A stretch of DNA of 64,000 nucleotides, from positions 744,001-808,000 of the forward strand of contig NZ_CP046244.1 in NCBI RefSeq assembly GCF_009735625.1. Direction: 5' to 3'. The translations under genes were made by a program, and so were the position numbers. The notes beneath the pieces were generated by a model, which saw only the letters and a list, made by a program, of their open reading frames with translations, did not search any database and was not told the origin of the DNA. Origin of the DNA: Moorella glycerini (lineage in GTDB: Bacteria; Bacillota; DSM-521; Neomoorellales; Neomoorellaceae). Numbering within the stretch: the first letter of the stretch is position 1; each line of letters begins with the position of its first letter. This document shows, in pieces, positions 49,431-64,000 of this stretch.

Positions 49431-50504
49431 TTACTTCCGGCCCGATACCGCTCCATAATACCGTCGCTGGAAGCTTAAGGCCACGTTTACCAGGCCGATC
49501 ATTACCGGCACTTCAATCAGCGGACCGATGACCGCGGCAAAGGCCTGGCCGGAGTTGATGCCGAATACGGCAACGGCCACGGCGATGGCCAGCTCAAAGT
49601 TGTTGCTGGCGGCCGTAAAGGAAAGGGTGGTTGTCTGCTCGTAGTTAACCCCCAGGCGCATGCTGAGGAAAAAGGAAATTAAGAACATGAGGACGAAATA
49701 ACAGATTAGAGGAACGGCCACCCTGACCACATCCATGGGTAGTGACACGATATACTGCCCTTTCAGGGAAAACATAACCACTATAGTAAACAACAGGGCT
49801 ATTAGGGCCAGGGGACTGATTTTGGGGACAAAGTTTTTCTCGTACCATTCTTTACCCCTGGCCGGGATGAGGGTAAAACGGGTGATAACGCCGGCCAGGA
49901 AGGGGATACCCAGGTAAATGGCCACGCTGATGGCCACCTCGCCGATGGAGACGTGGACTTTCATTCCTTGAAAGCCCAGCCACGCCGGCAGCAGGGTGAT
50001 GAAAATATAGGCGTAAACTGAATAAAAGATAACCTGGAAGATGGAGTTTAACGCCACCAGGGCCGCGGCATACTCGGCATCACCCCGGGCCAGGCTGTTC
50101 CAGACGATGACCATGGCGATGCAGCGCGCCAGGCCGATAAGGATAAGGCCGGCCATGTAATCCGGGTAATTGTGTAAAAAGATGATGGCCAGGACAAACA
50201 TCAGGATAGGGCCGATAATCCAGTTCTGGACGAGGGATAAGGCCATAACTTTGCCATTACGAAACACTTTTCCCAGTTCCTCATACTTGACCTTGGCCAG
50301 GGGCGGGTACATCATGACGATCAGGCCGATGGCGATGGGGATGGAAGTTGTTCCCACCGACATTTTATTCAGGGCCTCCGCCACCCCGGGCACTACATAA
50401 CCCAAGGCTACGCCGAAAGCCATAGCCAGGAAGATCCACAGGGTCAAAAAACGATCCAGTAGAGATAACCTGGCCACGGGCTGATAGTTATTTGCTGGTG
50501 CCAT
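49431..50504 (-). CDS. Arsenite/antimonite efflux permease, ACR3 family
   Basis: 357 residues, about 10 transmembrane segments of the bile-acid/arsenite transporter fold. [23 protein letters not shown] and [18 protein letters not shown] at the N-terminus, [19 protein letters not shown] with the conserved thiol in TM4, and [38 protein letters not shown] in the last helices, are ACR3 hallmarks. It expels As(III) through the membrane. It is downstream of arsR on the same strand (224-base gap) and most likely co-regulated. Confidence 0.95.
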
Positions 50505-50727
50505 AATTTCAGTCCTCCTCTATAATATTATTCTCTTTAAACGATCCACAAGTACTGTTTAGTTTAGTTAGGTGCTGGGCCGAAGCCTCCAATTTTCTGC
50601 CTTTCCCCTCCTACGCCGGTACCGGTAGCTAATCGTCATATAAGGGTCCCGGCTCTCTTATGGCGCCGTTGTCTGGTAGTCCGTGACCGTGGCTAACCGC
50701 AATTAGACGGCTACAGGCTCCCTTTCC

Positions 50728-51111
50728 TTAATAAGCGCCATCTTTCCTTTTCTGGGGCGGCCGGCAGGCAACTTTCGGATTCTCCATTAGTTGTTGGAGC
50801 TTATCATAATCGACGGCAAACTCCTTCTTCGCTTCCAGGGGTACATCCAGGTAGGCCAGCCAACCCTGGAGGACTGCGGCCAGCTTTTCTTTATTGAGGT
50901 GGTAAAAGACCCACTGGCTCACTTTTTCCTCCCAGACCAGGTCAGCTTCTTTCAGGACCCGCAGGTGCTGGGAGATGGCCGGCTGGGTTATGCCCAGGAT
51001 CTCTTCCAGCTCGCAAACGCACAGTTCCTGTTCGGCCAGCAGGGCAATAATCCGCAGTCGCAAATGCTGGCCCAGGGCTTTAAAAGCCTTTTCCCACTCC
51101 TTTAAGGTCAC
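50728..51111 (-). CDS. arsR: ArsR-family metalloregulator
   Basis: 127 residues: winged-helix with ELCVCELEEILGITQPAISQHLRVLKEADLV; C31 and C33 form the CxC metal-binding pair of the As(III)-sensing ArsR type, with a further C-terminal cysteine (VACRPP) that could be the third ligand. It dissociates from the operator on binding As(III)/Sb(III). The GTG start at 51111 has AAGGAGGCGAAGGA. It precedes acr3. Confidence 0.92.
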   Translation of the reverse strand: MTLKEWEKAFKALGQHLRLRIIALLAEQELCVCELEEILGITQPAISQHLRVLKEADLVWEEKVSQWVFYHLNKEKLAAVLQGWLAYLDVPLEAKKEFAVDYDKLQQLMENPKVACRPPQKRKDGAY

Positions 51112-51282
51112 TCCTTCGCCTCCTTAGATAAGCTATTTAGTATATAATATTGGGCTTTGGTAGGTTTGTCAAGATGAATTTAAAATGGGCGGCGGTGGCG
51201 GCCCTGGTGGTGAGGTTCAACATAGCCGCCCCGGCCAGGCTGGAACCAACCGGTGATACGCCATAAAAGGCGGGGATACCCC

Positions 51283-51311
51283 TTGACATGAGCATTAACC
51301 GGTAGTATCAT
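51283..51311 (+). promoter_or_regulatory. Promoter of the small Cys/His-rich protein gene
   Basis: TTGACA (51283-51288), 17-base spacer, TATCAT (51306-51311). It lies just upstream of the palindromic operator. Confidence 0.75.
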
Positions 51312-51318
51312 GTAATTA

Positions 51319-51347
51319 GCTTATATATGCTGTCAACATATATAAGC
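51319..51347. promoter_or_regulatory. Perfect 11-bp inverted repeat, candidate PadR operator
   Basis: GCTTATATATG (51319-51329), seven-base spacer, CATATATAAGC (51337-51347). It covers the expected transcription start of the promoter at 51283-51311. PadR proteins often bind ATAC/TATA-rich palindromes of this size, and a PadR gene lies 230 bases away. A half-site-like TATATATAAG sits at 61103-61112 near another promoter. Confidence 0.75.
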
Positions 51348-51372
51348 AGATCAAAAAGGAGGGAAAGAAACA

Positions 51373-51585
51373 ATGTGTAACTATGCCGGTTACGGTCATA
51401 ACCGTGGCCATGATTGGGGCCCGCAGCGGGGCTGCTGCTGCCACGGCCATCACCCCATGGGCTTCCACCGCCACTTTTTAACTGCTGCGGAGAAAAAAGC
51501 CCGCCTGGAGGAGTATCTTAAGGAGCTGCAGGCCGAAGTAAAAGCCGTGGAGGAAAGGCTGAAGAAACTGGGAGAAGGGGCTTAA
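51373..51585 (+). CDS. Small Cys/His-rich protein with coiled-coil tail (DUF5320-like)
   Basis: 70 residues: the N-terminal third is rich in Cys and His (MCNYAGYGHNRGHDWG, GCCCHGHHPMGFHRH) and could bind metal; residues 36-68 are a charged coiled coil (KKARLEEYLKELQAEVKAVEERLKK). Similar small proteins are found beside PadR regulators and permeases in Clostridia. The SD AAGGAGGG is strong and the promoter and operator lie just upstream, so it is a regulated, expressed gene. Its stop and that of the convergent PadR gene share bases. Confidence 0.78.
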   Translation: MCNYAGYGHNRGHDWGPQRGCCCHGHHPMGFHRHFLTAAEKKARLEEYLKELQAEVKAVEERLKKLGEGA

Positions 51586-51989
51586 TTCCCCTTCTCCATC
51601 TCTTTGTCCTGCCCAAAAATGTCTTCGTAACGCCGCAGGAAGGTTTCCAGGGCGGCTTTATTGCGCCGGATGGTCACCGCCCAGTCATGGAGGTAATCTA
51701 TCCCTTCCGGGGTTATCTCATACCGGCGGCGGGCCGGTCCCGGGCCGCCGGTCGACCAGTGGGACCGTACCAGGCCTTCTTCCTCCAGGCGCCTTAAGTT
51801 GCGGTAAACGGCCCCGGCATCGGGAACGCCCTCCCATAACCCCAGGCGGTTCATGCTTTCCATCAGCTCGTAACCGTGGGTGGATTTCTCATAGAGCAGC
51901 AACAATAAGCAGGGCTGCAAAAAGCCTTCCATGCGGGCGCCGCGACAATCGCAGCGATGGTGATGCCCGCCGGGTTCATAACCGCACAT
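51582..51989 (-). CDS. PadR-family regulator with N-terminal Cys/His motif
   Basis: 135 residues: an unusual N-terminus CGYEPGGHHHRCDCRG that can bind metal, then a PadR winged helix (FLQPCLLLLLYEKSTHGYELMESMNRLG, DAGAVYRNLRRLEEEGLVRSHWSTG, RRRYEITPEGIDYL) and a C-terminal dimerisation helix. The Cys/His tail suggests that the regulator itself senses a metal or metalloid. It converges with the small Cys/His-rich gene, which is likely under its control. Confidence 0.88.
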   Translation of the reverse strand: MCGYEPGGHHHRCDCRGARMEGFLQPCLLLLLYEKSTHGYELMESMNRLGLWEGVPDAGAVYRNLRRLEEEGLVRSHWSTGGPGPARRRYEITPEGIDYLHDWAVTIRRNKAALETFLRRYEDIFGQDKEMEKGN

Positions 51990-52100
51990 GGATTCACTCC
52001 CTATCTGCTATTTACATATGTGTGTTAATATACAATAATAGAATAAACCAATAATTCCATCTCGTCAACAAGACGCTATAACCCATAAAGGAGAGAGGCC

Positions 52101-52583
52101 ATGTTTACCCTGCTTCTTTACCTGCTGGCCCTGGGCGGGCTGTTAATTTCTTTTGGGAAAGACCGCCATAAAACCAGGCTGGCTTTAATGAAAGGCTGGA
52201 AGGCCTTTACCAACATCTTACCCGACTTTGCTGTCGTCCTAGCCCTGATAGGGATCATGCTGACTTACCTGTCACCTCATACCATTGCCGCCCTGGTGGG
52301 CAAAAACAGCGGCTTCCCGGGCATGCTGGCCAGCTCCATAGTGGGCTCCGTTACCCTTATTCCCGGGTTTGTCGCCTTTCCCCTGGCCAAATCTTTGCTC
52401 GACCGGGGCGCCGGTATCATGCAGATGGCCGTCTTTGTTTCGACCCTGATGATGGTGGGCGTCGTCACCGCTCCCCTGGAAAGCAGGTATTTCGGTAAAA
52501 AAGAAACTATCCTCCGTAATTCTTTGAGCTATGTCTTTTCCTTTATCGTGGCTATGATCATCGGGATGGTGGTGGGAGCGTGA
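52101..52583 (+). CDS. Permease half protein A (DUF318/YraQ-related)
   Basis: 160 residues with about five transmembrane segments. The pattern (LPDFAVVLALIGIMLTYLSP, GMLASSIVGSVTLIPGFVAFPLAKSLLDRGAGIMQMAVFVSTLMMVG) is that of one repeat of the YraQ/DUF318 permease fold, which normally holds two repeats in one chain. Its stop overlaps the start of half B (GTGA). Family members export organoarsenicals or metal-thiol compounds; the substrate is not established. Confidence 0.8.
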   Translation: MFTLLLYLLALGGLLISFGKDRHKTRLALMKGWKAFTNILPDFAVVLALIGIMLTYLSPHTIAALVGKNSGFPGMLASSIVGSVTLIPGFVAFPLAKSLLDRGAGIMQMAVFVSTLMMVGVVTAPLESRYFGKKETILRNSLSYVFSFIVAMIIGMVVGA

Positions 52584-53122
52584 ACTTGCTTAACTTAATC
52601 AAGACTTACCGCTACTTTTTATTAATCATCCTCTTTGATGTGGTAATAACCGTCTTCCATCCCGGCACCGGCTTGACAATTTTTAAATACACCGCCGGTA
52701 ACTTTGCCGAGATGCTCGCCATTATCCCGCCGATCTTTCTCCTCCTGGGCCTCCTAGATGTCTGGGTACCGCGGGAAACAATTATCCGCTATCTAGGTGA
52801 GGGTTCCGGGCTAAAGGGCATTGTCCTAAGCATAGTACTGGGGGCAGCCGCCGCCGGGCCCCTTTACGGCGCCTTCCCGGTGGCCGCCGTCATGGCGAAG
52901 AAAGGCACCAAATACAGCAACATTATCATTTTCCTCTGTTCCTGGTCGACTTTAAAAATCCCTATGTTTCTCTTTGAAATGTCTGCCCTGGGCATAAAGT
53001 TTGCCCTGACCCGCTGGCTGGTCAACATCCCCGGGATACTGGCGATTGCTTATATTATCGACCGCCTCATAGGAGCGGAAGACAAAGCGGAATTCTACCG
53101 GCGCCAGATGGCAAATCCTTAA
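52580..53122 (+). CDS. Permease half protein B (DUF318/YraQ-related)
   Basis: 180 residues, about five transmembrane segments, with MLAIIPPIFLLLGLLDVWVP, IVLGAAAAGPLYGAFPVAAVMAKKGTKYSNIIIFLCSWSTLKIPM. It is the second repeat of the same fold. The GTG start overlaps the previous stop, so the two halves are made as a pair and probably form one heterodimeric permease. Neither has the SCS-type TPFCSCSTIP motif of the full-length relatives in this window. Confidence 0.8.
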   Translation: MNLLNLIKTYRYFLLIILFDVVITVFHPGTGLTIFKYTAGNFAEMLAIIPPIFLLLGLLDVWVPRETIIRYLGEGSGLKGIVLSIVLGAAAAGPLYGAFPVAAVMAKKGTKYSNIIIFLCSWSTLKIPMFLFEMSALGIKFALTRWLVNIPGILAIAYIIDRLIGAEDKAEFYRRQMANP

Positions 53123-53126
53123 CGGC

Positions 53127-53642
53127 TTACCCCAGCAACCCCTGCAAGGCGTTGAAGCGTTCACTATTTTCCGGCTCTGCCAGGGGTGGGCAATCAGTCA
53201 GGGCGTTTTCACCGCCCAGCAACCTGGCGGCAAAAGCCAGGCAGGTCAACTGGCCGCACCGGCGGCAATTGGTCCCGGGCAGCCATTTGTATATTTGCAG
53301 CGCTGTGGGCCTCTCCTTTTTGGTGAATAAAGGAGGGATTTCCTTTTGCCGCCGGTGGGTATCGTTGATTAAATCCTTGAGCCAGTCCAGCACCTGGAGG
53401 GCGTCCGTCATATTGACCGCTTTGGCCATGGTAAGCTTGCGGGGGTAAAGGGTTATAAGCCGAAACTCTTTCATAAAGGTCAGGTTTTTAGCGTAATGGT
53501 TATATACGGCATTTTTAATCACGGTATTGAGGTAGGGTAATAACTCCTCAATGTCCTGGCTCAAAACCGCCTGCAGGCGGATCTTTTCCGCATCGGCCAG
53601 GCAGGTTTCCACTTTGGTGACGTCAATCTTTTCCAGATACAA
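53127..53642 (-). CDS. [4Fe-4S]-domain protein, AcsC/CFeSP N-terminal domain type
   Basis: About 171 residues. The C-terminal third has IYKWLPGTNCRRCGQLTCLAFAARLLGGENALTDCPPL, the four-cysteine domain found at the N-terminus of the corrinoid/Fe-S protein large subunit AcsC and in RnfB-type ferredoxins. The first 115 residues are helical and unrecognised. A TTG at 53642 with GGAGG upstream is the likely start; an in-frame reading from 53690 lacks an SD. It converges with the permease B gene (4-base gap). Function unknown; an electron carrier is suggested. Confidence 0.7.
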   Translation of the reverse strand: MYLEKIDVTKVETCLADAEKIRLQAVLSQDIEELLPYLNTVIKNAVYNHYAKNLTFMKEFRLITLYPRKLTMAKAVNMTDALQVLDWLKDLINDTHRRQKEIPPLFTKKERPTALQIYKWLPGTNCRRCGQLTCLAFAARLLGGENALTDCPPLAEPENSERFNALQGLLG

Positions 53643-53759
53643 CAGGTACCGCCTCCAATCTGTCCACTCCTTGTTCAGCCATGCTTGCAAGGCACAACAA
53701 TCAGGAAAATAACTCCGGATAGTCCACCGGGTCCATGATAGTAAAACCTCTCAAACACT

Positions 53760-54911
53760 TCAGCTTGTTAGTACAATAATTTCCTTTACCGCCGTTAAAA
53801 AGGTGTCTATCTCTTCCGCGGTATTAAAATAACTTACGCTGGCCCGCACCGTTCCCCGGTCCAGGGTGCCTATGGTTTTATGGGCCAGGGGCGCGCAGTG
53901 CAGGCCCACCCGGACCATAATTTCATGTCCCTCGTCCAGGGCGTAGGCCACCTCTTCCGGGGCCAGTTCTTTAATGTTAAAGGAAACCACGCCCACCTTG
54001 CGCGCCGTTTCCCGGGGACCATAGACGGTCAATCCAGGTAACTCTTCCAGCCCGGCCAGCATCCTGGCCGTCAGAATCTCCTCGTGGGAACGGATGCGGC
54101 TGATCCCCTGGTTGAGGATGTATTCCACAGCGGCTTTGAGGCCGGCGATGCCGACAACGTTCAGCGTCCCGGCCTCAAAGCGATCCGGCAGGCCCTCAGG
54201 CATGTACTCCAGGCGGGATACCGAACCGGTACCCCCTTCCTTCAGGGGATGCAGGTCGAAACCGGGACGTATATAGAGGCCGCCGGTACCCGTGGGCCCG
54301 AGCAGGCCTTTGTGACCGGTAAAGGCCAGGAAATCGATATCCAGTTTCCGGACATCGATGGGATATGCCCCAGCCGTCTGGGCGGCGTCCAGCAGAACAG
54401 GCACCCCGTGCCGGTGGGCCGCGGCAGTAATTGCCTGCACCGGCATCACCGTTCCCGTAACATTGGAGGCGTGGGTGCAGGCCAGCAGGCGCGTTTCCTC
54501 CCGGAAGGCCGCATCCAACTCTGGCATTAACAGTTCGCCGTCTTCCCGGCAGGGCACTACCGTAATGCTTATCCCGCGCTCCTTCTCCAGGGTTTTCAAA
54601 CAGCGCCAGACGGCATTATGCTCCATAGCCGTAGTAATGACATGATCGCCGGGGTTCAACCACCCCTTGAGGGCCAGGTTGATGGCCTCGGTGGCATTGG
54701 CGGTAAAAATGATGCGGGTGGCGTCATTAATGTTAAATAACTTCCCCAGTAGCCGCCGGCATTGGAAGACTATCTCTTCCGCCGCCAGGGCGCGGCAGTA
54801 GCCGCCCCGGCCGGCGCTGGCCCCTATATTCTTCATAAAATGCTCCATAGCCTGCCAGACTGCCGGCGGCTTGGGATAAGTAGTGGCGGCGTTATCCAGG
54901 TAAACGGCCAT
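53760..54911 (-). CDS. Cysteine desulfurase-family aminotransferase
   Basis: 383 residues, class V fold: VYLDNAATTYPKPPAV start, ITTAMEHNAVWRCL, VPVLLDAAQTAGAYPIDV, FLAFTGHKGLLGPTGTGGLYI with the PLP lysine in GHKGL, and RVGLHCAPLAHKTIG with the catalytic cysteine. This is the TIGR01977 subfamily (often near sulfur or selenium genes). It removes sulfur (or selenium) from cysteine-type substrates. With the TusA and YedE genes at 61-64 kb it may feed a sulfur or selenium carrier, by inference only. Confidence 0.9.
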   Translation of the reverse strand: MAVYLDNAATTYPKPPAVWQAMEHFMKNIGASAGRGGYCRALAAEEIVFQCRRLLGKLFNINDATRIIFTANATEAINLALKGWLNPGDHVITTAMEHNAVWRCLKTLEKERGISITVVPCREDGELLMPELDAAFREETRLLACTHASNVTGTVMPVQAITAAAHRHGVPVLLDAAQTAGAYPIDVRKLDIDFLAFTGHKGLLGPTGTGGLYIRPGFDLHPLKEGGTGSVSRLEYMPEGLPDRFEAGTLNVVGIAGLKAAVEYILNQGISRIRSHEEILTARMLAGLEELPGLTVYGPRETARKVGVVSFNIKELAPEEVAYALDEGHEIMVRVGLHCAPLAHKTIGTLDRGTVRASVSYFNTAEEIDTFLTAVKEIIVLTS

Positions 54912-55057
54912 TATTTACACCCCCCGTTAGGGCCTTAATGACAGGCGTTTATCAAGAGTATGGGTTTTGTCTATTACCTGGCAGCCGTTTTAAGTTTTGT
55001 CGGGGCTGCTATTTCGTCCCGGCGTGGTAAATAAACTAACTCAGAGGTGGGAACGTC

Positions 55058-55504
55058 ATGTCACAACAGGAAAATTGGTACCTGCCCTATATGGATAAAA
55101 AGGTAAAGGGCATTGAAGTGGTGGAACGCCCGGCACAGGTAGCTGTTTTTTACTGTACCGGGGCCTCAAATGTGGGCCAGAGTACGGTGCTGGGTGGTAA
55201 CGAGGCTGCCCGGCGCCTGGGTTATGACCGGGCCGCCCTCCTGTGCCTGGCCAGTATCTCGGCCGGCTTGAAGAATATCAGCCGCGCCGCGGCTGAAGCC
55301 AAAGGTATCGTGGCCGTAGACGGTTGCCCCATGCAGTGTGCCCGGCGTACCCTGGAGAAGGCCGGGTTTAACGTCGAGGAGAGCCTGGTGGTTACCCGGG
55401 ACTGCAATGTACCCAAATCATTTATCCTGGAGGACGCTGCCGCTATTACCAACGTCGCCGACGCCATTGTTGCCCGGGTGGAAAAAATTGAAACCGAAAA
55501 ATAA
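55058..55504 (+). CDS. DGC-domain putative zinc-binding protein (copy 1)
   Basis: 148 residues. YCTGASNVGQSTVLGGNEAARRLGYDRAALLCLASISAG and GIVAVDGCPMQCARRTLEKAGF carry the conserved cysteines and the Asp-Gly-Cys that names the DGC family. These proteins cluster with arsenic-resistance and metal genes; function unknown. SD GAGGTGGGA at normal distance. Confidence 0.85.
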   Translation: MSQQENWYLPYMDKKVKGIEVVERPAQVAVFYCTGASNVGQSTVLGGNEAARRLGYDRAALLCLASISAGLKNISRAAAEAKGIVAVDGCPMQCARRTLEKAGFNVEESLVVTRDCNVPKSFILEDAAAITNVADAIVARVEKIETEK

Positions 55505-55639
55505 GGATAAGGGGCGCAATTGCCCCTTCTTCCGGCATTTTCATCAAAAGACGTCGTCATAAATCCCGTCGGAGGAGACTTCTCCTTTTCCCGACCAAGC
55601 GCCGCCTGGAAAATTTCGCTTCCCAAGATTTACAATTTA

Positions 55640-56593
55640 TTAGATGAGTTGACTGCGGGTATCACGAACAAGCCCCGTCCCAGGACAGCCTTCATATTCC
55701 ATCTGGAGCATGACGTGTTGGATGCCGAATTTGTCACGCAATGTGGCTTCCACTTCCCGGCGCAGCTTTTCCGATTCACTGATAGATATATCCTTATCCA
55801 GGTCGATGTGGCCTTCGAAATTAATCTGTCGCTCCCCGAGCTGCCAGACATGGACATGATGCAGGTCGCGGATACCCGGCAGGCTCTTGACAGACTTATA
55901 AATTTCCTCCAGCTTCACGCCCTTTGGCGTGCCTTCCATTAGAATTTGAACTGTATCAGAAACAATTTCGTAACTTTCCTTCAAAACATACAGACCGATT
56001 AATATTGTCAAGAGGGGGTCTATCCAGGTGATATGCCAGAAATAGATCGCCATACCGCCAGCTGCTACAGCCACTGAAGATAAAGCGTCGGAGAATAAAT
56101 GGAGGTAAGAAGACCGCACATTCAGGCTCCGGCTGGCATCGCGCCGCAGGAGAAAGACCGCCAGGGTGTTGACTAATAACCCGGCGGCTCCGACACCTAC
56201 CATCATTGAGCTATTGATATCCTGGGGGTGTAGTAACCGGGTTGCGGATTCTTTGAAAAGCAAAATGGAAATCACCATCAATACGGCGGAATTGAACAGG
56301 GCCGCCAGGATCTCCAGGCGCTGAAAACCGAAGGTTTTTTCCAGGGTTGCCCCCCGCCGGGAAAAGCGTAACGCAGCCAGGCTGATTGCCACGGCCGCCG
56401 CATCACTCAAGTTGTGCAGGGCATCAGAAAGGAGGGAAAGGCTCCCCGACAGTAATCCTCCTGCCACCTCCGCCGCGGTAATAAGCAGGTTTAATAACAT
56501 CGTTAGTACCAGGTTCAGGCCGCTCACTGCTTCTGTTTCCAGGTGGCTGTGGTGGTGATGATGAGTATTGCCATCATGCTGATCACTGTTCAC
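55640..56593 (-). CDS. Cation diffusion facilitator (CzcD/ZitB-type)
   Basis: About 317 residues: a His-rich N-terminus (DQHDGNTHHHHHSHLE), six transmembrane helices with the metal-site motif SLLSDALHNLSDAAA in TM2 and YLHLFSDALSSVA in TM5, then a C-terminal metal-sensing domain (GIRDLHHVHVWQLGE). It exports Zn/Co/Cd-type divalent ions in exchange for protons. The GTG at 56593 with AAGGAG upstream is preferred; 56602 is too near the SD. Confidence 0.94.
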   Translation of the reverse strand: MNSDQHDGNTHHHHHSHLETEAVSGLNLVLTMLLNLLITAAEVAGGLLSGSLSLLSDALHNLSDAAAVAISLAALRFSRRGATLEKTFGFQRLEILAALFNSAVLMVISILLFKESATRLLHPQDINSSMMVGVGAAGLLVNTLAVFLLRRDASRSLNVRSSYLHLFSDALSSVAVAAGGMAIYFWHITWIDPLLTILIGLYVLKESYEIVSDTVQILMEGTPKGVKLEEIYKSVKSLPGIRDLHHVHVWQLGERQINFEGHIDLDKDISISESEKLRREVEATLRDKFGIQHVMLQMEYEGCPGTGLVRDTRSQLI

Positions 56594-56822
56594 CTTATGC
56601 ACTCCTTACCGCGCATTTTTCTCGCCTAACTATATCTCGCCTAACTATATTCTTTATTACTAATAAAATAACGCCTACCCGGCCTTCCGTCAACCAAATA
56701 AAAACAAAATCAATCTACCGTCTATGATTGTGGCATGACGAGAACTCTATATATCAGCACCCCCGCCAGGCAGGAAATCCACGTAAGAACACACCGTCCG
56801 GCGAAACACCCGGATAAATACC

Positions 56823-56851
56823 TTGACACCACCAGCCGGGTACCATATAAT
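56823..56851 (+). promoter_or_regulatory. Perfect sigma-A promoter of the second PadR operon
   Basis: TTGACA (56823-56828), 17 bases, TATAAT (56846-56851). The 312-bp gap 56594-56905 otherwise shows only CTATGTATAG near 56874, a possible operator half. Confidence 0.82.
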
Positions 56852-56905
56852 ACAAGCAGCAAGCATTGCCCATCTATGTATAGAGGTTAAAGGTAGGAGG
56901 AAAAT

Positions 56906-57268
56906 ATGGATTATACGGATCGCGAGTACTGGAACGGTATCATCAAGATGTGCCTGTCGAAGTTTTTTATCCTGCGGGTTCTCTACACCCAGCCCATGCA
57001 CGGCTACGAGATAGCCCGTACCGTAGCTGAAGTCACCAGGGGCTGCTGCACGCCTACCGAGGGGACGATTTACCCGGTACTCAGGGAATTCGAGGAGGGC
57101 GGCTACGTCACTTCTTCCCTGGAGATAGCCGGCGGCCGGGAGCGTAAAGTCTATACCCTTACGCCAAAAGGGCAGGAGGCCTTCCGGGTCGCCGTCGAGG
57201 CCTGGCGGGAGGTTACCAATTATATTTTACAGGCGGTAAAAGTACAGGAAAATAACGACCAATTGTAA
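56906..57268 (+). CDS. PadR-family regulator with Cys pair
   Basis: 120 residues: LSKFFILRVLYTQPMHGYEIARTVAEVTRGCCTPTEGTIYPVLREFEEGGYVTSSL is the PadR HTH, with an adjacent Cys-Cys in the recognition region, and RKVYTLTPKGQEAFRVAVEAW follows. The two cysteines suggest sensing of a thiol-reactive metal(loid). The SD is AGGAGGAAAAT. It precedes the full-length permease and DUF2703 genes, probably as their autoregulated repressor. Confidence 0.92.
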   Translation: MDYTDREYWNGIIKMCLSKFFILRVLYTQPMHGYEIARTVAEVTRGCCTPTEGTIYPVLREFEEGGYVTSSLEIAGGRERKVYTLTPKGQEAFRVAVEAWREVTNYILQAVKVQENNDQL

Positions 57269-57351
57269 TGATATTGATACAGCTCAAATGCATAAACCAA
57301 AATAGCACTTAACATCTGTTAACTGGAGCTAATACATAGGGAGGTACAAAA

Positions 57352-58248
57352 ATGGGCATCAACTCCTTAAGCCAGGCTCTTCATTTTTTCTTTATCATTA
57401 CAATCGAACTGGTGGTACTCTTCATCGGCGTCAGCTTCCTGGTGGGGTTGCTACAGGAATATATCCCGGCGGCAACCGTCCAGCGGCTACTTACTGGACG
57501 CCGCGGCCAGGGTAACGTTCTTGGTGCGGTTCTGGGGGCTATTACTCCTTTTTGCTCCTGTTCCACCATCCCGATTATGGTGGGACTGATAAACGCCGGC
57601 GCCCCCTTTGGCGCCGCAAGCTCCTTCCTCCTGGCCTCCCCCCTTCTCAATCCCGTAATCCTTGGTTTATTGCTCGCCTTTCTGGGCTGGCAAGCCACGG
57701 TGACCTACGCGGCCGTTACCTTCATCCTCAGTGTAGTCCTGGGAGCCGTATGGGAAAAAATAGGCCTGGCCAGCCAGGTAAAGAGGGTCCGCATCAGCGG
57801 CGGCCACGTTGGCAACCGGGAAAACCAGGATTTCCGCTCCCGGTTGGTTCGCGCCCTGGGCGGAGCGTGGAATCAGTTTATCGGCGTATTGCCTTATCTC
57901 TTTATCGGTGTGGCCATCGGCGCTTTTATCTACGGCTTTGTCCCGGCTGAGTTTGTGGCTCGAGTAGCTGGCCCCGGTAACCCCCTGGCCATACCGGTGG
58001 CGGCAGTTATAGGCATCCCTCTCTATATCCGCGTCGAAACGATGATCCCCATTGGTATGGTGCTGCTCCAGAAAGGCATGAGCCTGGGTACCCTCATGGC
58101 CCTGATCATCGGCGGCGCGGGGGCCAGCATTCCCGAAGTTTCTCTACTAGCAGGTATCTTTAAGCCCCGCCTGGTGGTAGCTTTCGTTCTCACCATTTTT
58201 ACGGTTGCCGTCCTGGCCGGGTATGCCTTTAATATTATTTTTGTATAA
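57352..58248 (+). CDS. Full-length DUF318/YraQ-type permease (ArsP-related)
   Basis: 298 residues, about eight transmembrane segments in two repeats. Repeat 1: GNVLGAVLGAITPFCSCSTIPIMVGLINAGAPFGAASSFLLASPLLNPVI, with the CSC motif; repeat 2: GIPLYIRVETMIPIGMVLLQKGMSLGTLMALIIGGAGASIPEVSLL. ArsP relatives export methylarsenite. Located between PadR and DUF2703. The second half lacks the Cys motif, so it differs from the permease at 59.8 kb. Confidence 0.88.
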   Translation: MGINSLSQALHFFFIITIELVVLFIGVSFLVGLLQEYIPAATVQRLLTGRRGQGNVLGAVLGAITPFCSCSTIPIMVGLINAGAPFGAASSFLLASPLLNPVILGLLLAFLGWQATVTYAAVTFILSVVLGAVWEKIGLASQVKRVRISGGHVGNRENQDFRSRLVRALGGAWNQFIGVLPYLFIGVAIGAFIYGFVPAEFVARVAGPGNPLAIPVAAVIGIPLYIRVETMIPIGMVLLQKGMSLGTLMALIIGGAGASIPEVSLLAGIFKPRLVVAFVLTIFTVAVLAGYAFNIIFV

Positions 58249-58262
58249 GGAGGAACTGTATT

Positions 58263-59009
58263 ATGGCGGAAAAAAAAGGATTGCTGGCCAGGGTTTTTGG
58301 CCGGCAGGGAAGTAATTGTTGCTCTATCCGTATCGAGGAGATCCCTGAAGGAGACATCCATACCCCTGATAACGGTTGCTGCTGCGGCAGTTCTTGGCCG
58401 GGCAGTACCGAAAAAGCTGAAGGGCGAGAAATAGAGATATCGCCCGAAACCCGGGCGTTCCAGCGATCCCTCGACATCGAGTTTCTCTATCTGGACCTGG
58501 ATGCCTGCACCAGGTGCCGGGGAACGGCGCGCAACCTGGAAGAGGCCCTCAACGAAATGGTAGGGGTTTTACAAGCAACCGGGATCAAGGTCAACCTGCG
58601 CAAGATCCACGTCCAGACGGAAGAACAGGCCCTGGCCCTGGGATTTGTCAGTTCGCCCACCATCCGCATCAACGGGCGGGACATCCAGCTGGACGTCAGG
58701 GAAAGCCTGTGCGAATCCTGCGGCGACCTTTGCGGCGAGGATGTGGACTGCCGCGTCTGGGTGTACCAGGGGAAGGAATATACCGTCGCCCCCAAAGGGA
58801 TGATTATTGAGGCCATCCTGAAGCACGTTTACGGGGAAGGAACTGAAGCTCCCGCGGAAAGGGAAACACCAAAGGAGCTGCCCGATAATTTAAAGCGCTT
58901 CTTTGCGGCCAAGCGTAAGAAAGAAGAAGGCGCAGCCGGCCGTAAGCCCGCGCCGGAACCACAAGATTGTTGTTGCGGCGTTTCCCCGTTATCTAAGTGC
59001 TGCGACTGA
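58263..59009 (+). CDS. DUF2703 protein with extra cysteine clusters
   Basis: 248 residues. The core (about 70-185) has LDACTRCRGTARNLEEAL (C82, C85), FVSSPTIRINGRDI and CESCGDLCGEDVDCRVWVYQGKEYT, the DUF2703 signature. The start adds GSNCC and GCCCGS clusters and the end CCCG and CC. It resembles a thioredoxin-like redox or metal chelation protein. It starts 14 bases after the permease with AAGGAGG, so the pair is one transcript. Cytosolic, function unknown. Confidence 0.85.
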   Translation: MAEKKGLLARVFGRQGSNCCSIRIEEIPEGDIHTPDNGCCCGSSWPGSTEKAEGREIEISPETRAFQRSLDIEFLYLDLDACTRCRGTARNLEEALNEMVGVLQATGIKVNLRKIHVQTEEQALALGFVSSPTIRINGRDIQLDVRESLCESCGDLCGEDVDCRVWVYQGKEYTVAPKGMIIEAILKHVYGEGTEAPAERETPKELPDNLKRFFAAKRKKEEGAAGRKPAPEPQDCCCGVSPLSKCCD

Positions 59010-59085
59010 CGTGCTATGGCCTGCTCTTCTTGCGGGTATCAGAAACAAGCGCGTAGCTTTTACTAAAGCTATAACTTTAGAACAG

Positions 59086-59116
59086 GGCCACGGGCAGTAT
59101 AGAGCAACCCGTGGCC
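59086..59116. terminator. Hairpin between convergent genes
   Basis: GGCCACGGG (59086-59094) and CCCGTGGCC (59108-59116), a nine-base perfect stem with 13-base loop. U-runs are weak on both sides, so it may be a rho-independent or processing structure serving both convergent genes. Confidence 0.5.
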
Positions 59117-59122
59117 ACGCAA

Positions 59123-59494
59123 TTAATATCCCAGGGATTCTTTTACCGCCTGCACCACCCGGTCCAGCTCTTCGCCCGTCCAGGCAAACTCATGATTTTT
59201 TTGGATTCCCAGCCGGGTCACCATAACATAGTCTGTCACCGGAAAGCCGGCATGCTCCACAGTTGCTTTAGCACAGCCTATAGGGCAGCCGTCTATCGCC
59301 ACAATTCTCCTGGCCACCCTGGTGGACTCAACAATACTCTGGACATGGCCACCCAGCCCGGCCAGGCAAAACAACTTGCCTGCGCCCTCTTGATCCAGCT
59401 TTACCGCCGCCTGGTTGGCAAGCTGGCCTACGTTCGAACCTCCCGCGCAGGGAAAAAGCATAATTTCCGCCGGTTCGCAGGTGCATTTCTCCAT
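59123..59494 (-). CDS. DGC-domain putative zinc-binding protein (copy 2)
   Basis: 123 residues: LFPCAGGSNVGQLANQAAVKLDQEG, KLFCLAGLGGHVQSIV and RIVAIDGCPIGCAKATVEHAGF match copy 1 (55058-55504) motif by motif, including Asp-Gly-Cys-Pro. N-terminus MEKCTCEP adds two cysteines. It lies 21 bases downstream of the thioredoxin-like gene. Function unknown. Confidence 0.85.
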   Translation of the reverse strand: MEKCTCEPAEIMLFPCAGGSNVGQLANQAAVKLDQEGAGKLFCLAGLGGHVQSIVESTRVARRIVAIDGCPIGCAKATVEHAGFPVTDYVMVTRLGIQKNHEFAWTGEELDRVVQAVKESLGY

Positions 59495-59515
59495 TACAAG
59501 CTCATCTCCCGTTTA

Positions 59516-59758
59516 CTAGCTTATTTCCTCCTGGATCCATTTCTTGATCTCTTCTTTGTCGGGCACCCGGCCGAACACTTTGAGCTTGTTGTTGACCATC
59601 AGTCCCGGCGTCATCATAACCCCATAATCGGTTATCTTGTTGATGTCCGTCACTTTTTCCACATCAGCGGCCACGCCCATTTCCGCCAGGGCGTTCATCA
59701 CGTTTTGTTCCAGCGCCTTGCACCGGGCGCATCCCGTACCTAAAACTTTGATTTCCAT
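59516..59758 (-). CDS. Small thioredoxin-like redox-active disulfide protein
   Basis: 80 residues, thioredoxin fold: EIKVLGTGCARCKALEQNVMNAL has the CxxC (Cys-Ala-Arg-Cys), MMTPGLMVNNKL the cis-proline region. This is the redox-active disulfide protein 2 family, common in metal and arsenic operons. SD AAGGAGATGG. Confidence 0.92.
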   Translation of the reverse strand: MEIKVLGTGCARCKALEQNVMNALAEMGVAADVEKVTDINKITDYGVMMTPGLMVNNKLKVFGRVPDKEEIKKWIQEEIS

Positions 59759-59795
59759 GACTATCCATCTCCTTTTTCAATTTTTTAATTTAATT

Positions 59796-60965
59796 TTAGC
59801 CCACCAGGGCTCCAAATACTATCCCCGTTAAGGTAGCCATGATGACTACCAGGGAAACGTAGGCAAAGGTTTTCTTGAACCCCAGTACGCTGTTGATAAC
59901 GAGCATACTGGGCAAACTCAAGGCCGGGCCCGCCAGTAAGAGGGCTAAAGCCGGCCCCTGGCCCATCCCGGACCCGATAAGTCCCTGGACGATCGGTACT
60001 TCCGTCAAAGTAGCAAAGTACATAAAAGCGCCTGCAATAGAAGCGGTAAAGTTGGCTAAGAGGCTGTTGCCCCCTACCACCATGGCGATATATTTTGCCG
60101 GTATAATACCGGTATCGACGTTGGGCCTGCCCATCAGGAAGCCGGCCACCAGCACGCCCCCGAAAAGGAGGGGCAGGATTTTAATGCTGAAATCCCACGT
60201 AGAATCCACCCAGGCTGACAGTTCTTCCCGCTTAAACCAGGCCTTTAAAATCACGGCCAGGGCTACCAGAAGAGCGATAACTAGATACCATTTGACGCTG
60301 TATACCGCATACCAGAAGCCCGCTTGTTCCGACGGCTTGCCCCAGGCGGCAAAAACAAGGATTAAGACCAGGACCAGGAAATACAGAACAGTCTGCCCAA
60401 GCGTGCGGGGTGGTTCTCCTCCTTCCGGCATGAGCAGCCCTTTGGCCCTCTCCTGCTCTTCTTCTCTGAAGAGCAGGGCCATGATCAGGCCGATTATTAC
60501 CGAAAACAGGACGGCCCCCAGAGCCCTGGCCAGGCCGATCTGCCAGCCCAGCACCCGGGCCGAGAGGATAATGGCCAGGACGTTAATGGCCGGCCCGGAA
60601 TACAGGAAAGCTATGGCCGGTCCGAGGCCGGCGCCGCGCTTATATATGCCCATGAACAAGGGTAAGACGGTGCAGGAGCAGACGGCGAGGATTGCTCCCG
60701 ATACAGCCCCCACTCCATAAGCTGTAACTTTGGGGCTTTCCGGTCCCAGGTACTTCATGACAGCCTGGGAGGAAAGGAAATTGCTCATGGCCCCGGCGAT
60801 GAAAAGAGCGGGTACCAAGCAGAACAGCACATGTTCCCTGGCGTATTCCTGCAGCATGTAGAAGGCTTCCAGGATGGCGCCCTGCATCCTGGGATGCTGG
60901 AAGGGCAGGAAATAGGCAGCCAAAAACACGGCGACAATCAATAACAATTTGCCCTGCTTGCTCAT
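59796..60965 (-). CDS. Full-length YraQ/DUF318-type permease with long central loop
   Basis: 389 residues, two five-helix repeats joined by a soluble linker (REEEQERAKGLLMPEGGEPPR). Repeat 1: GVGAVSGAILAVCSCTVLPLFMGIYKRGAGLGPAIAFLYSGPAINVLAI with Cys-Ser-Cys; repeat 2: GNSLLANFTASIAGAFMYFATLTEVPIVQGLIGSGMGQGPALALLLAGPALSLPSMLVI. It belongs to the same family as the 57.3 kb permease but is longer. It is the first gene of the permease-thioredoxin-DGC operon. Confidence 0.9.
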   Translation of the reverse strand: MSKQGKLLLIVAVFLAAYFLPFQHPRMQGAILEAFYMLQEYAREHVLFCLVPALFIAGAMSNFLSSQAVMKYLGPESPKVTAYGVGAVSGAILAVCSCTVLPLFMGIYKRGAGLGPAIAFLYSGPAINVLAIILSARVLGWQIGLARALGAVLFSVIIGLIMALLFREEEQERAKGLLMPEGGEPPRTLGQTVLYFLVLVLILVFAAWGKPSEQAGFWYAVYSVKWYLVIALLVALAVILKAWFKREELSAWVDSTWDFSIKILPLLFGGVLVAGFLMGRPNVDTGIIPAKYIAMVVGGNSLLANFTASIAGAFMYFATLTEVPIVQGLIGSGMGQGPALALLLAGPALSLPSMLVINSVLGFKKTFAYVSLVVIMATLTGIVFGALVG

Positions 60966-61247: not shown

Positions 61248-61475
61248 ATGGCAAAATATTTTATTGACGCCCTGGGCGAAATGTGCCCGGTGCCCAATAT
61301 CAAGATCCGGGAAAAGCTTAAAGATCTGGAAGTAGGCGACGCCATCATCCTGAAAACCGACCATAGCTGTGCCTCCATATCTATCAGGAACGAAATGCGT
61401 CGTAAGGGTTATAAAACAGCAGTCCAGGAGATCGATACCGGCATCTGGCAGGTAACTGTGCGGCGGGTGAAATAA
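61248..61475 (+). CDS. TusA/SirA-family sulfur-carrier-like protein (copy 1)
   Basis: 75 residues: IDALGEMCPVPNIKIREKL with the catalytic Cys-Pro of TusA, KTDHSCASISI with a second cysteine, then IWQVTVRRV. TusA proteins carry persulfide sulfur; related YedF forms go with selenium genes. SD GAGGTGAGG. It abuts the LysR stop (61476) in convergent orientation. Confidence 0.93.
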   Translation: MAKYFIDALGEMCPVPNIKIREKLKDLEVGDAIILKTDHSCASISIRNEMRRKGYKTAVQEIDTGIWQVTVRRVK

Positions 61476-62378
61476 TTAACAGAAACCCCGGTTCGGGGAA
61501 CGTAGGAAGTTGATAAAGGCTTTACCCAGCCTGGTCTGGATCCTTTCGCGGTTATAGGCCAGGTATATTTTTTGCTCAAAGGAAAGGCCTTCAAGTTCCA
61601 GAGCCAGCAGGGTGCGCGTATGGAGTTCCTTACGCAGGGCCAGCCGGGACATGATGGAGATGCCGACGCCGGCCTCTACGGCGGCTTTGATGGAATCAAC
61701 GCTGGCCAGCTCCACTACTATATTGAGGTGGGACAAATCGATACCTATAGAGTTCAGGGTTTCTTCAATGACCTGGCGGGTACCCGAACCGGCCTCGCGG
61801 ATGATAAAAGGCTGATTTTTTAATTCTTCGATGCTGATCCACGTACGACCGGTCCAAGGTTTCCTATTAGGGGCGATAATCACCAGCTGGTCTACGGCCA
61901 GCTCACAGGCAACAAAGGGCCCCTTTAAATCCTTGCCCTCAATGAGGGCGATGTCGACCCGCCCTTCTTTTAAATCATTGATAATCTGCTGGCGGTTGGC
62001 CACCTTGAGCTTTAATACAGCTTCAGGAAATTTTTCTTTAAAAATGCAGATGCTGCAGGGAACAGCATAACCGCCAATCGTCGAGGTAGCCCCCACGGTC
62101 AACTGGCCGCTGACGGAGGCACGTAAGCCCTCCATGGCGCTTTCCAGCTCGTCGTAAAGGGATACAATCTTTCGGGCGTAGTCCTTTAAAACTTCGCCGG
62201 CATCGGTGAGGGTAACCCCCCGGTTGGTGCGCTCCAGGAGCTGGATGGCAAAAACCTGCTCCAGGTGCTTGATCTGCTGGCTGACCGCCGGCTGGGTCAG
62301 GAAAAGACGCTGGGCCGTTTCCGAGAGGCTCCCGGTCTCGGCAATAGTAGCGAAAACGCGCAAGTTGTTCAGGTTCAT
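61476..62378 (-). CDS. LysR-family regulator (CysL/CbbR-type)
   Basis: 300 residues: HTH NLRVFATIAETGSLSETAQRLFLTQPAVSQQIKHLEQVFAIQLLERTNRG and a LysR effector domain (VGATSTIGGYAVP, VDIALIEG, FIIREAGSGTRQVIEETL). The sequence around the effector pocket resembles CysL/CbbR-type sensors. It is divergent from the YedE-TusA genes, with a palindrome in the gap, and so is the likely regulator. SD GAGGATAAA. Confidence 0.93.
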   Translation of the reverse strand: MNLNNLRVFATIAETGSLSETAQRLFLTQPAVSQQIKHLEQVFAIQLLERTNRGVTLTDAGEVLKDYARKIVSLYDELESAMEGLRASVSGQLTVGATSTIGGYAVPCSICIFKEKFPEAVLKLKVANRQQIINDLKEGRVDIALIEGKDLKGPFVACELAVDQLVIIAPNRKPWTGRTWISIEELKNQPFIIREAGSGTRQVIEETLNSIGIDLSHLNIVVELASVDSIKAAVEAGVGISIMSRLALRKELHTRTLLALELEGLSFEQKIYLAYNRERIQTRLGKAFINFLRSPNRGFC

Positions 62379-62532: not shown

Positions 62533-63204
62533 ATGGCACAAAGTGAGACTTCTTTACGCTCCCGTGTCGGCACGCGGTCTAAAGCCACAAAAAAGAGCCA
62601 GGTGGGTTATGCTATCCTGGTCCTGGCCCTAGTGATCGTCTTTGGTGTTTTCCTGGGAAGCCTGAAGGTTGCCCTGGCTGCCAAGTGGGTCTTCGGCCTT
62701 GCTTTCGGCTTCGTTTTGCAGCGCTCCCGTTTCTGCTTTACCGCATCCATGCGTGACCCTGTACTAACAGGCAGCACCTCTTTAACCCGGGCCGTAATTA
62801 TAGCCATAGCCGTAGCCACCGTTGGCTTTGCCGCCATCCAGTTCTCCGCTTATATGGCCGGCAAACCTATCCCGGGCTTTATCAGCCCCGTAGGTATCCA
62901 TACCGTGATCGGCGCCATTCTCTTCGGCACCGGTATGGTTATCGCCGGCGGCTGTGCCTCCGGTACCTTGATGCGCGTAGGCGAGGGTTTCATCATGCTC
63001 ATGGTCACCCTGGTCTTCTTCGTCGCCGGTTCGGCCCTGGGCGCCTATCACTTCGGCTGGTGGCAGGGTTTCTCCATGAAATCCTCGCCGTCAATATTTT
63101 TACCCAACGTCCTGGGCTGGCCCCTGGCCCTCCTGGTCCAGTTTGGCCTCCTGGGCGCCCTGTACTGGCTGGCCACCTGGTGGGAATACCGGAAGGCCGA
63201 TTAA
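62533..63204 (+). CDS. YeeE/YedE-family thiosulfate/selenium-type transporter, first half
   Basis: 223 residues, about five transmembrane segments. KWVFGLAFGFVLQRSRFCFTASMRDP and GAILFGTGMVIAGGCASGTLMRVGEGFIMLM are the conserved motifs of the first YeeE repeat, with C-containing sites in FCF and GGCASG. In YeeE (TsuA) such cysteines line the thiosulfate path. The protein is only half of a YedE, with the other half in 63569-64000. ATG at 62533 has GGAGGTGGG. Confidence 0.93.
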   Translation: MAQSETSLRSRVGTRSKATKKSQVGYAILVLALVIVFGVFLGSLKVALAAKWVFGLAFGFVLQRSRFCFTASMRDPVLTGSTSLTRAVIIAIAVATVGFAAIQFSAYMAGKPIPGFISPVGIHTVIGAILFGTGMVIAGGCASGTLMRVGEGFIMLMVTLVFFVAGSALGAYHFGWWQGFSMKSSPSIFLPNVLGWPLALLVQFGLLGALYWLATWWEYRKAD

Positions 63205-63303: not shown

Positions 63304-63531
63304 GTGGCTGAATATACCCTTGATGCCCTGGGCGAAGCCTGCCCGGTGCCTTTAATCCGCACGGAGAAAAAGATGCAGGAGCTGAAAGTAGGGGACATCC
63401 TGGTTGTCCAGGTTGACCATAGCTGCGCCATGAAAAACGTCCCGGAATGGGCGCGCAAGCAGGGTTATAACGTAGAGCTGGAAGAGGTTGAAGAAGGCCG
63501 CTGGGACATTATTATCGAGAAAACCAAGTAA
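63304..63531 (+). CDS. TusA/SirA-family protein (copy 2)
   Basis: 75 residues: LDALGEACPVPLIRTEKKMQEL and QVDHSCAMKNVPEWARKQGY; Cys-Pro-Val-Pro and a second cysteine as in copy 1. Between the two YedE halves, it may pass sulfur or selenium from the transporter. GTG start with ATGGAGGTTGAT upstream. Confidence 0.93.
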   Translation: MAEYTLDALGEACPVPLIRTEKKMQELKVGDILVVQVDHSCAMKNVPEWARKQGYNVELEEVEEGRWDIIIEKTK

Positions 63532-63568: not shown

Positions 63569-64000
63569 ATGAGCAGGTATCAGGAAGAGGCGCTGAAGCT
63601 CAAAAATGCCCTGCTCAAAGACCCGTTTCCCTACTGGCTGGGGGGCATTTTTCTAGGCGTCCTCAATATTGCCCACTTTGCCACCTTTGGTGCGCCGTGG
63701 GGTATCACCACCGCCTTCGCCAACTGGGGTGCCTGGATCGGCCAGGCTCTAGGCCTGCACCCGGAGAAGTGGGCCTTCTACCAGTCAGAGGCCAACGCCA
63801 AAATGCTGGCCGGCGGTTTCCTGAATGACGGGGGTTCCATCCTTGATGTGGGCATCATCCTGGGAGCTCTCCTGGCGACGCTGCTGGCCTCCCAGTTTCG
63901 CATTAAAAAGATTAAGAATTACAAGCAGGTTGTCGGTGCCGTGGCCGGGGGCTTGTTGATGGGTTACGGCGCCAGAATAGCCTATGGCTGAAACATCGGT
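63569..64000 (+). CDS. YeeE/YedE second half, candidate selenoprotein with in-frame TGA; continues beyond window
   Basis: Reads MSRYQEEALKLKNALLKDPFPYWLGGIFLGVLNIAHFATFG..., then GGFLNDGGSILDVGIILGALLATLLASQF and VVGAVAGGLLMGYGARIAYG followed by TGA at 63989-63991 and AAC ATC GGT. In YedE the motif is G-A-R-x-A-x-G-C-N-I-G, so the TGA replaces the motif cysteine and the next codons continue the motif (N-I-G) to the window end. Read through, the protein has 144 residues here, with the rest outside. The ATG at 63569 has AAGGGAGG. A plain stop would cut the family's essential motif. Confidence 0.82.

Follow-up and report, generated by a model that had tools for sequence, protein, structure and literature searches.

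An in-frame TGA at the conserved cysteine of a half-size transporter gene

The window analysed here, a 64,000-nt stretch of a Moorella-type genome of 3.56 Mb (G000:C1:744001-808000), ends inside a gene for one half of a YeeE/YedE-family transporter whose frame meets a TGA, raising the question of whether this codon closes the gene or is read as selenocysteine (Sec). Translation of positions 63569–64000 (forward strand) gives ...GGLLMGYGARIAYG*NIG, with the TGA at 63989–63991 in the context MGYGARIAYG-TGA-NIG. The earlier note had placed this codon at the cysteine of a G-C-N-I-G motif and expected an open frame beyond the window, and both points held. In the source genome, 39 further open codons precede a TAG at window-equivalent 64109–64111, so that the complete frame encodes 180 amino acids, has the TGA at codon 141 as its sole internal stop and ends where Cys-containing homologues end. 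The product belongs to Pfam Sulf_transp (PF04143; 117.3 bits, cut-off 27) and aligns to the second (C-terminal) half of that profile, whereas the product of an upstream gene at 62533–63204 (forward strand, 223 aa; 105 bits) aligns to the first. The second-half gene of M. mulderi DSM 14980 is 98–99% identical to that of the window. An AlphaFold2 model of the second half alone was too poor for a fold search (pLDDT 56, pTM 0.40).

To place the codon in a wider context, we compared it across relatives. TGA occupies the codon 141 position in ten species-level genomes from five genera (six Moorellaceae and four members of one other, heat-loving family that includes Fervidicola and Thermovorax), with no other in-frame stop in any. 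The orthologues with TGC or TGT that the earlier note had suggested looking for were found, as all remaining orthologues examined carry one or the other; Cys or TGA stands at the site in 25 of 25 aligned homologues, the conserved-cysteine alignment looked for in a selenoprotein. Between the two groups of carriers the second-half genes are only about 65% identical, and third codon positions hold 98 of the 172 differences downstream of the TGA (six pairwise comparisons), which indicates that the downstream part is selected as protein. A chance or sequencing slip or a premature stop was ruled out, since ten genomes share the codon and the downstream frame is conserved; an alternative code is unlikely, because the neighbouring reductase gene is itself terminated by TGA. 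In 398 genomes of the phylum, no first-half homologue was listed with TGA as the only in-frame stop, and the first halves of the TGA carriers themselves have none; searches of plasmids returned distant homologues only. Separately, a YedE half in genome G348 (L145:5318-6709) carries a TGA in frame at a position not occupied by cysteine (GUEHMLVLG); this is probably a nonsense codon and, its position being different, was not counted as Sec.

A SECIS-type hairpin and the selenocysteine machinery

Bacterial Sec decoding was expected by the earlier note to show as a SECIS hairpin within about 40 bases of the TGA, and a hairpin of this type lies 21–43 nt from the TGA start, just beyond the window (window-equivalent 64010–64032; L083:7011-7033). 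The RNA folds as AGCGGCA/UGUCGCU, a 7-bp stem closing a 9-nt loop (CGGCUACGA) 25 nt from the UGA; an alternative fold adds two pairs to give nine, with the loop GCUA 27 nt from the UGA. The folding energy is −11.2 to −11.7 kcal/mol; when the peptide is recoded synonymously, 0.25% of the sequences reach the latter value. The hairpin falls within the limits published for bacterial SECIS elements (PMC13188914), namely an apical loop of 3–9 nt with G in its first two positions, a 4–16 bp stem, a distance of 16–37 nt from the UGA and a minimum free energy of −7.5 or below. It is embedded in a 29-nt block, TTTAGCGGCACGGCT[T/A]CGATGTCGCTTCA, that begins 18 nt after the TGA start and is identical in ten of ten carriers except at one site. 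Degenerate codons for conserved residues are invariant in 7 of 7 cases inside this block vs 6 of 63 outside it (Fisher p = 1.4e-6, indicative only as the ten sequences are related). Because the hairpin block is invariant, no compensatory changes could be counted and covariation is uninformative.

The remaining components of Sec insertion named in the earlier note, selA, selB, selC and selD, are all present in the genome: selB (389 bits, over cut-off), a selA frame adjoining it (identified by reading), tRNA-Sec (73.6 bits) and selD (405 bits), the last with a TGA of its own. The note's example of Moorella Sec usage, formate dehydrogenase, is borne out by an fdhA gene with a TGA and a SECIS-like hairpin. 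tRNA-Sec was also found in all nine other TGA carriers, and selB in every one of those tested. Taken together, the open frame, the hairpin, the Cys orthologues and this machinery support the proposal that the TGA is read as Sec and that the gene runs on, and the importer of Moorella and of the second heat-loving group almost certainly carries Sec at the site of a cysteine essential to its characterised relative.

Homology to the thiosulfate importer YeeE/TsuA

Among solved structures, both halves convincingly match only the Spirochaeta thermophila YeeE/TsuA entries, and in 6leo/8k1r the residue aligned with codon 141 is Cys293. By alignment, all three in-line chalcogen residues are present, with Cys68 and Cys141 of the first half (both encoded by Cys codons) and U141 of the second corresponding to Cys22, Cys91 and Cys293 of StYeeE, respectively. 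StYeeE reportedly cannot do without Cys91 or Cys293 (PMC11582611), and the proposed substrate path runs from Cys293 through Cys91 and Cys22 to Cys17 of YeeD (PMC11073785). This correspondence would put the predicted Sec in the substrate path, as the earlier note had suggested. In the solved structure, Arg28, Arg98 and Glu101 make contact with the TusA-like partner (PMC11073785); equivalents of all three are retained in Moorella, and Glu261 is replaced by Gln109. The S. thermophila system (YeeE/TsuA with YeeD/TsuB; 6leo, 8j4c, 8k1r) shares with the Moorella locus the three cysteine positions and the counterparts of Arg28, Arg98 and Glu101, and it too encodes a TusA-like partner bearing a CPxP motif at the same locus; it differs in that TsuA is one all-Cys chain, whereas Moorella has two chains and one predicted Sec. 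Both halves score far below the cut-off of 400 of the TsuA equivalog NF052577 (59.9 and 77.2 bits), a model of the full-length chain.

Operon organization and neighbourhood

Between the two halves lies a gene for a 75-aa TusA-like sulfur carrier with a CPVP motif (63304–63531, forward strand; Pfam TusA, 86 bits), and a thioredoxin-reductase-like gene follows the second half. A divergent LysR regulator of a selenium-metabolism-associated family (61476–62378, reverse strand; NF040786, 268 bits, cut-off 250) stands to one side, accompanied by a second TusA-like protein (61248–61475, forward strand; 75 aa, CPVP) that is conserved beside the LysR gene. The order first half, tusA, second half, reductase, with the LysR gene to one side, is shared by the TGA carriers and most of the Cys relatives. 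Second-family Cys orthologues (L124, L125, L155), unlike the Sec carriers, have no TusA gene between the halves and no close reductase. The operon is complete in its Cys form in three genomes (G022, G355, G202), all without tRNA-Sec and without SelD above cut-off.

The Moorella genome itself encodes two further YedE relatives (L142:6676-7983 and L143:10982-12202), fused, all-Cys and opposite to each other in the order of their halves; one stands beside a thiosulfate-reductase-like operon and one has the YedE/FdhT half order. Elsewhere in the window, positions 49434–60965 hold genes of metalloid and sulfur chemistry, including an ACR3 arsenite efflux protein, an ArsE-type thioredoxin-like protein, a cation diffusion facilitator, two permeases with weak resemblance to SaoE/SO_0444 and a cysteine desulfurase (TIGR01977, over cut-off); a homologue of the DF (seleno)protein family in Cys form lies at 58263–59006 (52 bits vs a cut-off of 70).

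Relation to known YeeE/YedE families

The best-scoring NCBIfam family of both halves is YedE/FdhT, at scores (102 and 115 bits) below the NF033796 cut-off of 350; TIGR04112 gave 46 bits against a cut-off of 200. The locus resembles YedE/FdhT and seleno-YedE in its selenium-associated LysR and TusA-like neighbours, and differs from YedE/FdhT in that the half equivalent to the window's gene comes first there and second in Moorella. The TIGR04112-type confinement to SelD organisms is not seen here, given the orthologous Cys operon of G022, G355 and G202. Serratia PmpA/PmpB are likewise half-size proteins, made as two separate subunits whose pairing has been proposed, and PmpA has the Cys293-type cysteine (PMC11582611), but they are about 130 aa each and all-Cys, with no Sec.

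One YeeE/YedE selenoprotein, with the motif GUxSG (WP_012471001.1), appears in a 2026 inventory that treats different Sec positions as distinct subfamilies (PMC13188914, Table 1). Like the Moorella protein, it is a PF04143 member in which one predicted Sec stands in for a conserved cysteine of the substrate path. Its Sec, placed from the printed motif for WP_012471001.1, corresponds to the first-half GGCxSG cysteine (the Cys91 equivalent), whereas the first half in Moorella reads GCASG with TGT and the predicted Sec lies at GUNIG in the second half, in a separate half-size gene. Sec-YeeE/YedE proteins are thus known as a kind, and the GUNIG position and split-gene form appear new relative to that inventory, though the site may have been listed earlier in the supplements of the 2008 and 2016 surveys.

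Gain and loss of the Sec codon

In trees of the second half alone and of the concatenated operon, TGA sequences and Cys sequences of a second order together form a single, well-supported group. A single clade of TGA sequences was rejected (AU p = 0.0046), Cys lineages being nested among them, and the history is therefore either one gain with at least three losses or two gains. One gain is favoured because the 29-nt block is common to the carriers, and the simplest history is one Cys-to-Sec change followed by several reversions, one of them recent enough to leave its hairpin. This last case is G341, whose orthologue (L118, minus strand, around 1618–1640) has TGC at the site and keeps the hairpin block with one base changed, in a genome that still has tRNA-Sec and a TGA-containing selD; its hairpin is a relic of a recent Sec-to-Cys change. 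SECIS remnants in Cys genes have precedent (PMC1794560). G298, also with TGC at the site, lacks tRNA-Sec, and its selD contains no TGA. The split operon is missing from several Moorella genomes, consistent with its absence from the 2006 selenoprotein list of M. thermoacetica (SelD, two FdhA, HdrA, FrhD and glutaredoxin).

Proposed mechanism and alternative explanations

Our favoured explanation, in which we have high confidence, is a split YeeE/YedE importer with Sec, inserted via SelB, tRNA-Sec and the SECIS element, as the outermost residue of its relay and with thiosulfate or another sulfane-sulfur species as its likely substrate. SelB and tRNA-Sec would decode the TGA through the hairpin just downstream, and the two halves would jointly form the membrane channel. 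Substrate would first meet Sec141, would pass on to Cys141 and next to Cys68 in the first half, and after this chalcogen relay would reach the TusA-like carrier encoded between the halves, with the thioredoxin-reductase-like neighbour probably keeping the relay reduced. Sec is largely ionised at neutral pH. A largely ionised selenolate fits poorly with the purely S-H hydrogen-bond relay proposed for TsuA, and nucleophilic capture of a sulfane atom would fit better than hydrogen-bond donation. It is accordingly possible, and we suggest it only tentatively, that the entry Sec attacks the sulfane or selane atom and that a persulfide-type relay continues via the two cysteines to TusA, in which case the channel would import by group transfer and would not serve as a hydrogen-bond conduit.

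Other readings must be weighed against this split importer. Sec is predicted here from sequence rather than at the protein level, and under standard annotation the gene would end at the TGA as a truncated or decaying gene; such a true stop is extremely improbable in view of the ten genomes with the same TGA, the purifying selection downstream, the SECIS hairpin and the Sec machinery. A more serious alternative, which we nevertheless regard as unlikely, keeps the same Sec importer and gives it selenium as cargo, either as selenosulfate or in a selenite-derived or zero-valent form; selenium import would then itself depend on selenium, a positive feedback. The selenium-associated LysR, above its cut-off, and the best NCBIfam match of both halves to YedE/FdhT lean this way, as does the resemblance of the TusA-like neighbour to YedF; archaea, moreover, have split yedE genes (PMC5322559), and the yedE transcript of Methanococcus maripaludis rises on selenium starvation (PMC11097638). 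Yet neither half reaches the YedE/FdhT or TIGR04112 cut-off, and deletion of M. maripaludis yedE abolished the use of no selenium species (PMC11097638). Furthermore, reports of selenium YedE are almost confined to organisms with SelD (PMC5322559), and sulfane sulfur or thiosulfate is the likelier cargo because the Cys operon occurs in genomes lacking tRNA-Sec and SelD above cut-off; the paralogue beside a thiosulfate-reductase-like operon points the same way. A respiratory role for such cargo is not assured, as the relative M. carbonis does not use thiosulfate as an electron acceptor (PMC11328732).

That the pair is mainly a sensor, informing the regulator of sulfur or selenium status as has been suggested for Hyphomicrobium SoxT1B, with Sec conferring a response to selenium and redox state, seems improbable. 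The conserved divergent LysR gene adjoins the operon and the YeeE-like SoxT1B does work in signalling (PMC11582611), but the three relay positions and Arg28, Arg98 and Glu101 are retained, and the operon also encodes a TusA carrier and a reductase, as would be expected for an importer.

Implications

Most known selenoproteins are redox enzymes, and Sec in the substrate path of a membrane transporter would therefore be unusual. The locus provides a further predicted Sec position, one where routine annotation would end the protein at codon 140, and G341 clearly illustrates reversion from Sec to Cys, its SECIS being still recognisable. As the predicted Sec replaces a residue reported to be indispensable in the solved thiosulfate importer, Sec/Cys pairs would offer a direct handle on hydrogen-bond passage vs covalent sulfur transfer, and orthologues in which Sec, Cys, or Cys with a relic SECIS occurs naturally are already at hand for testing a covalent relay.
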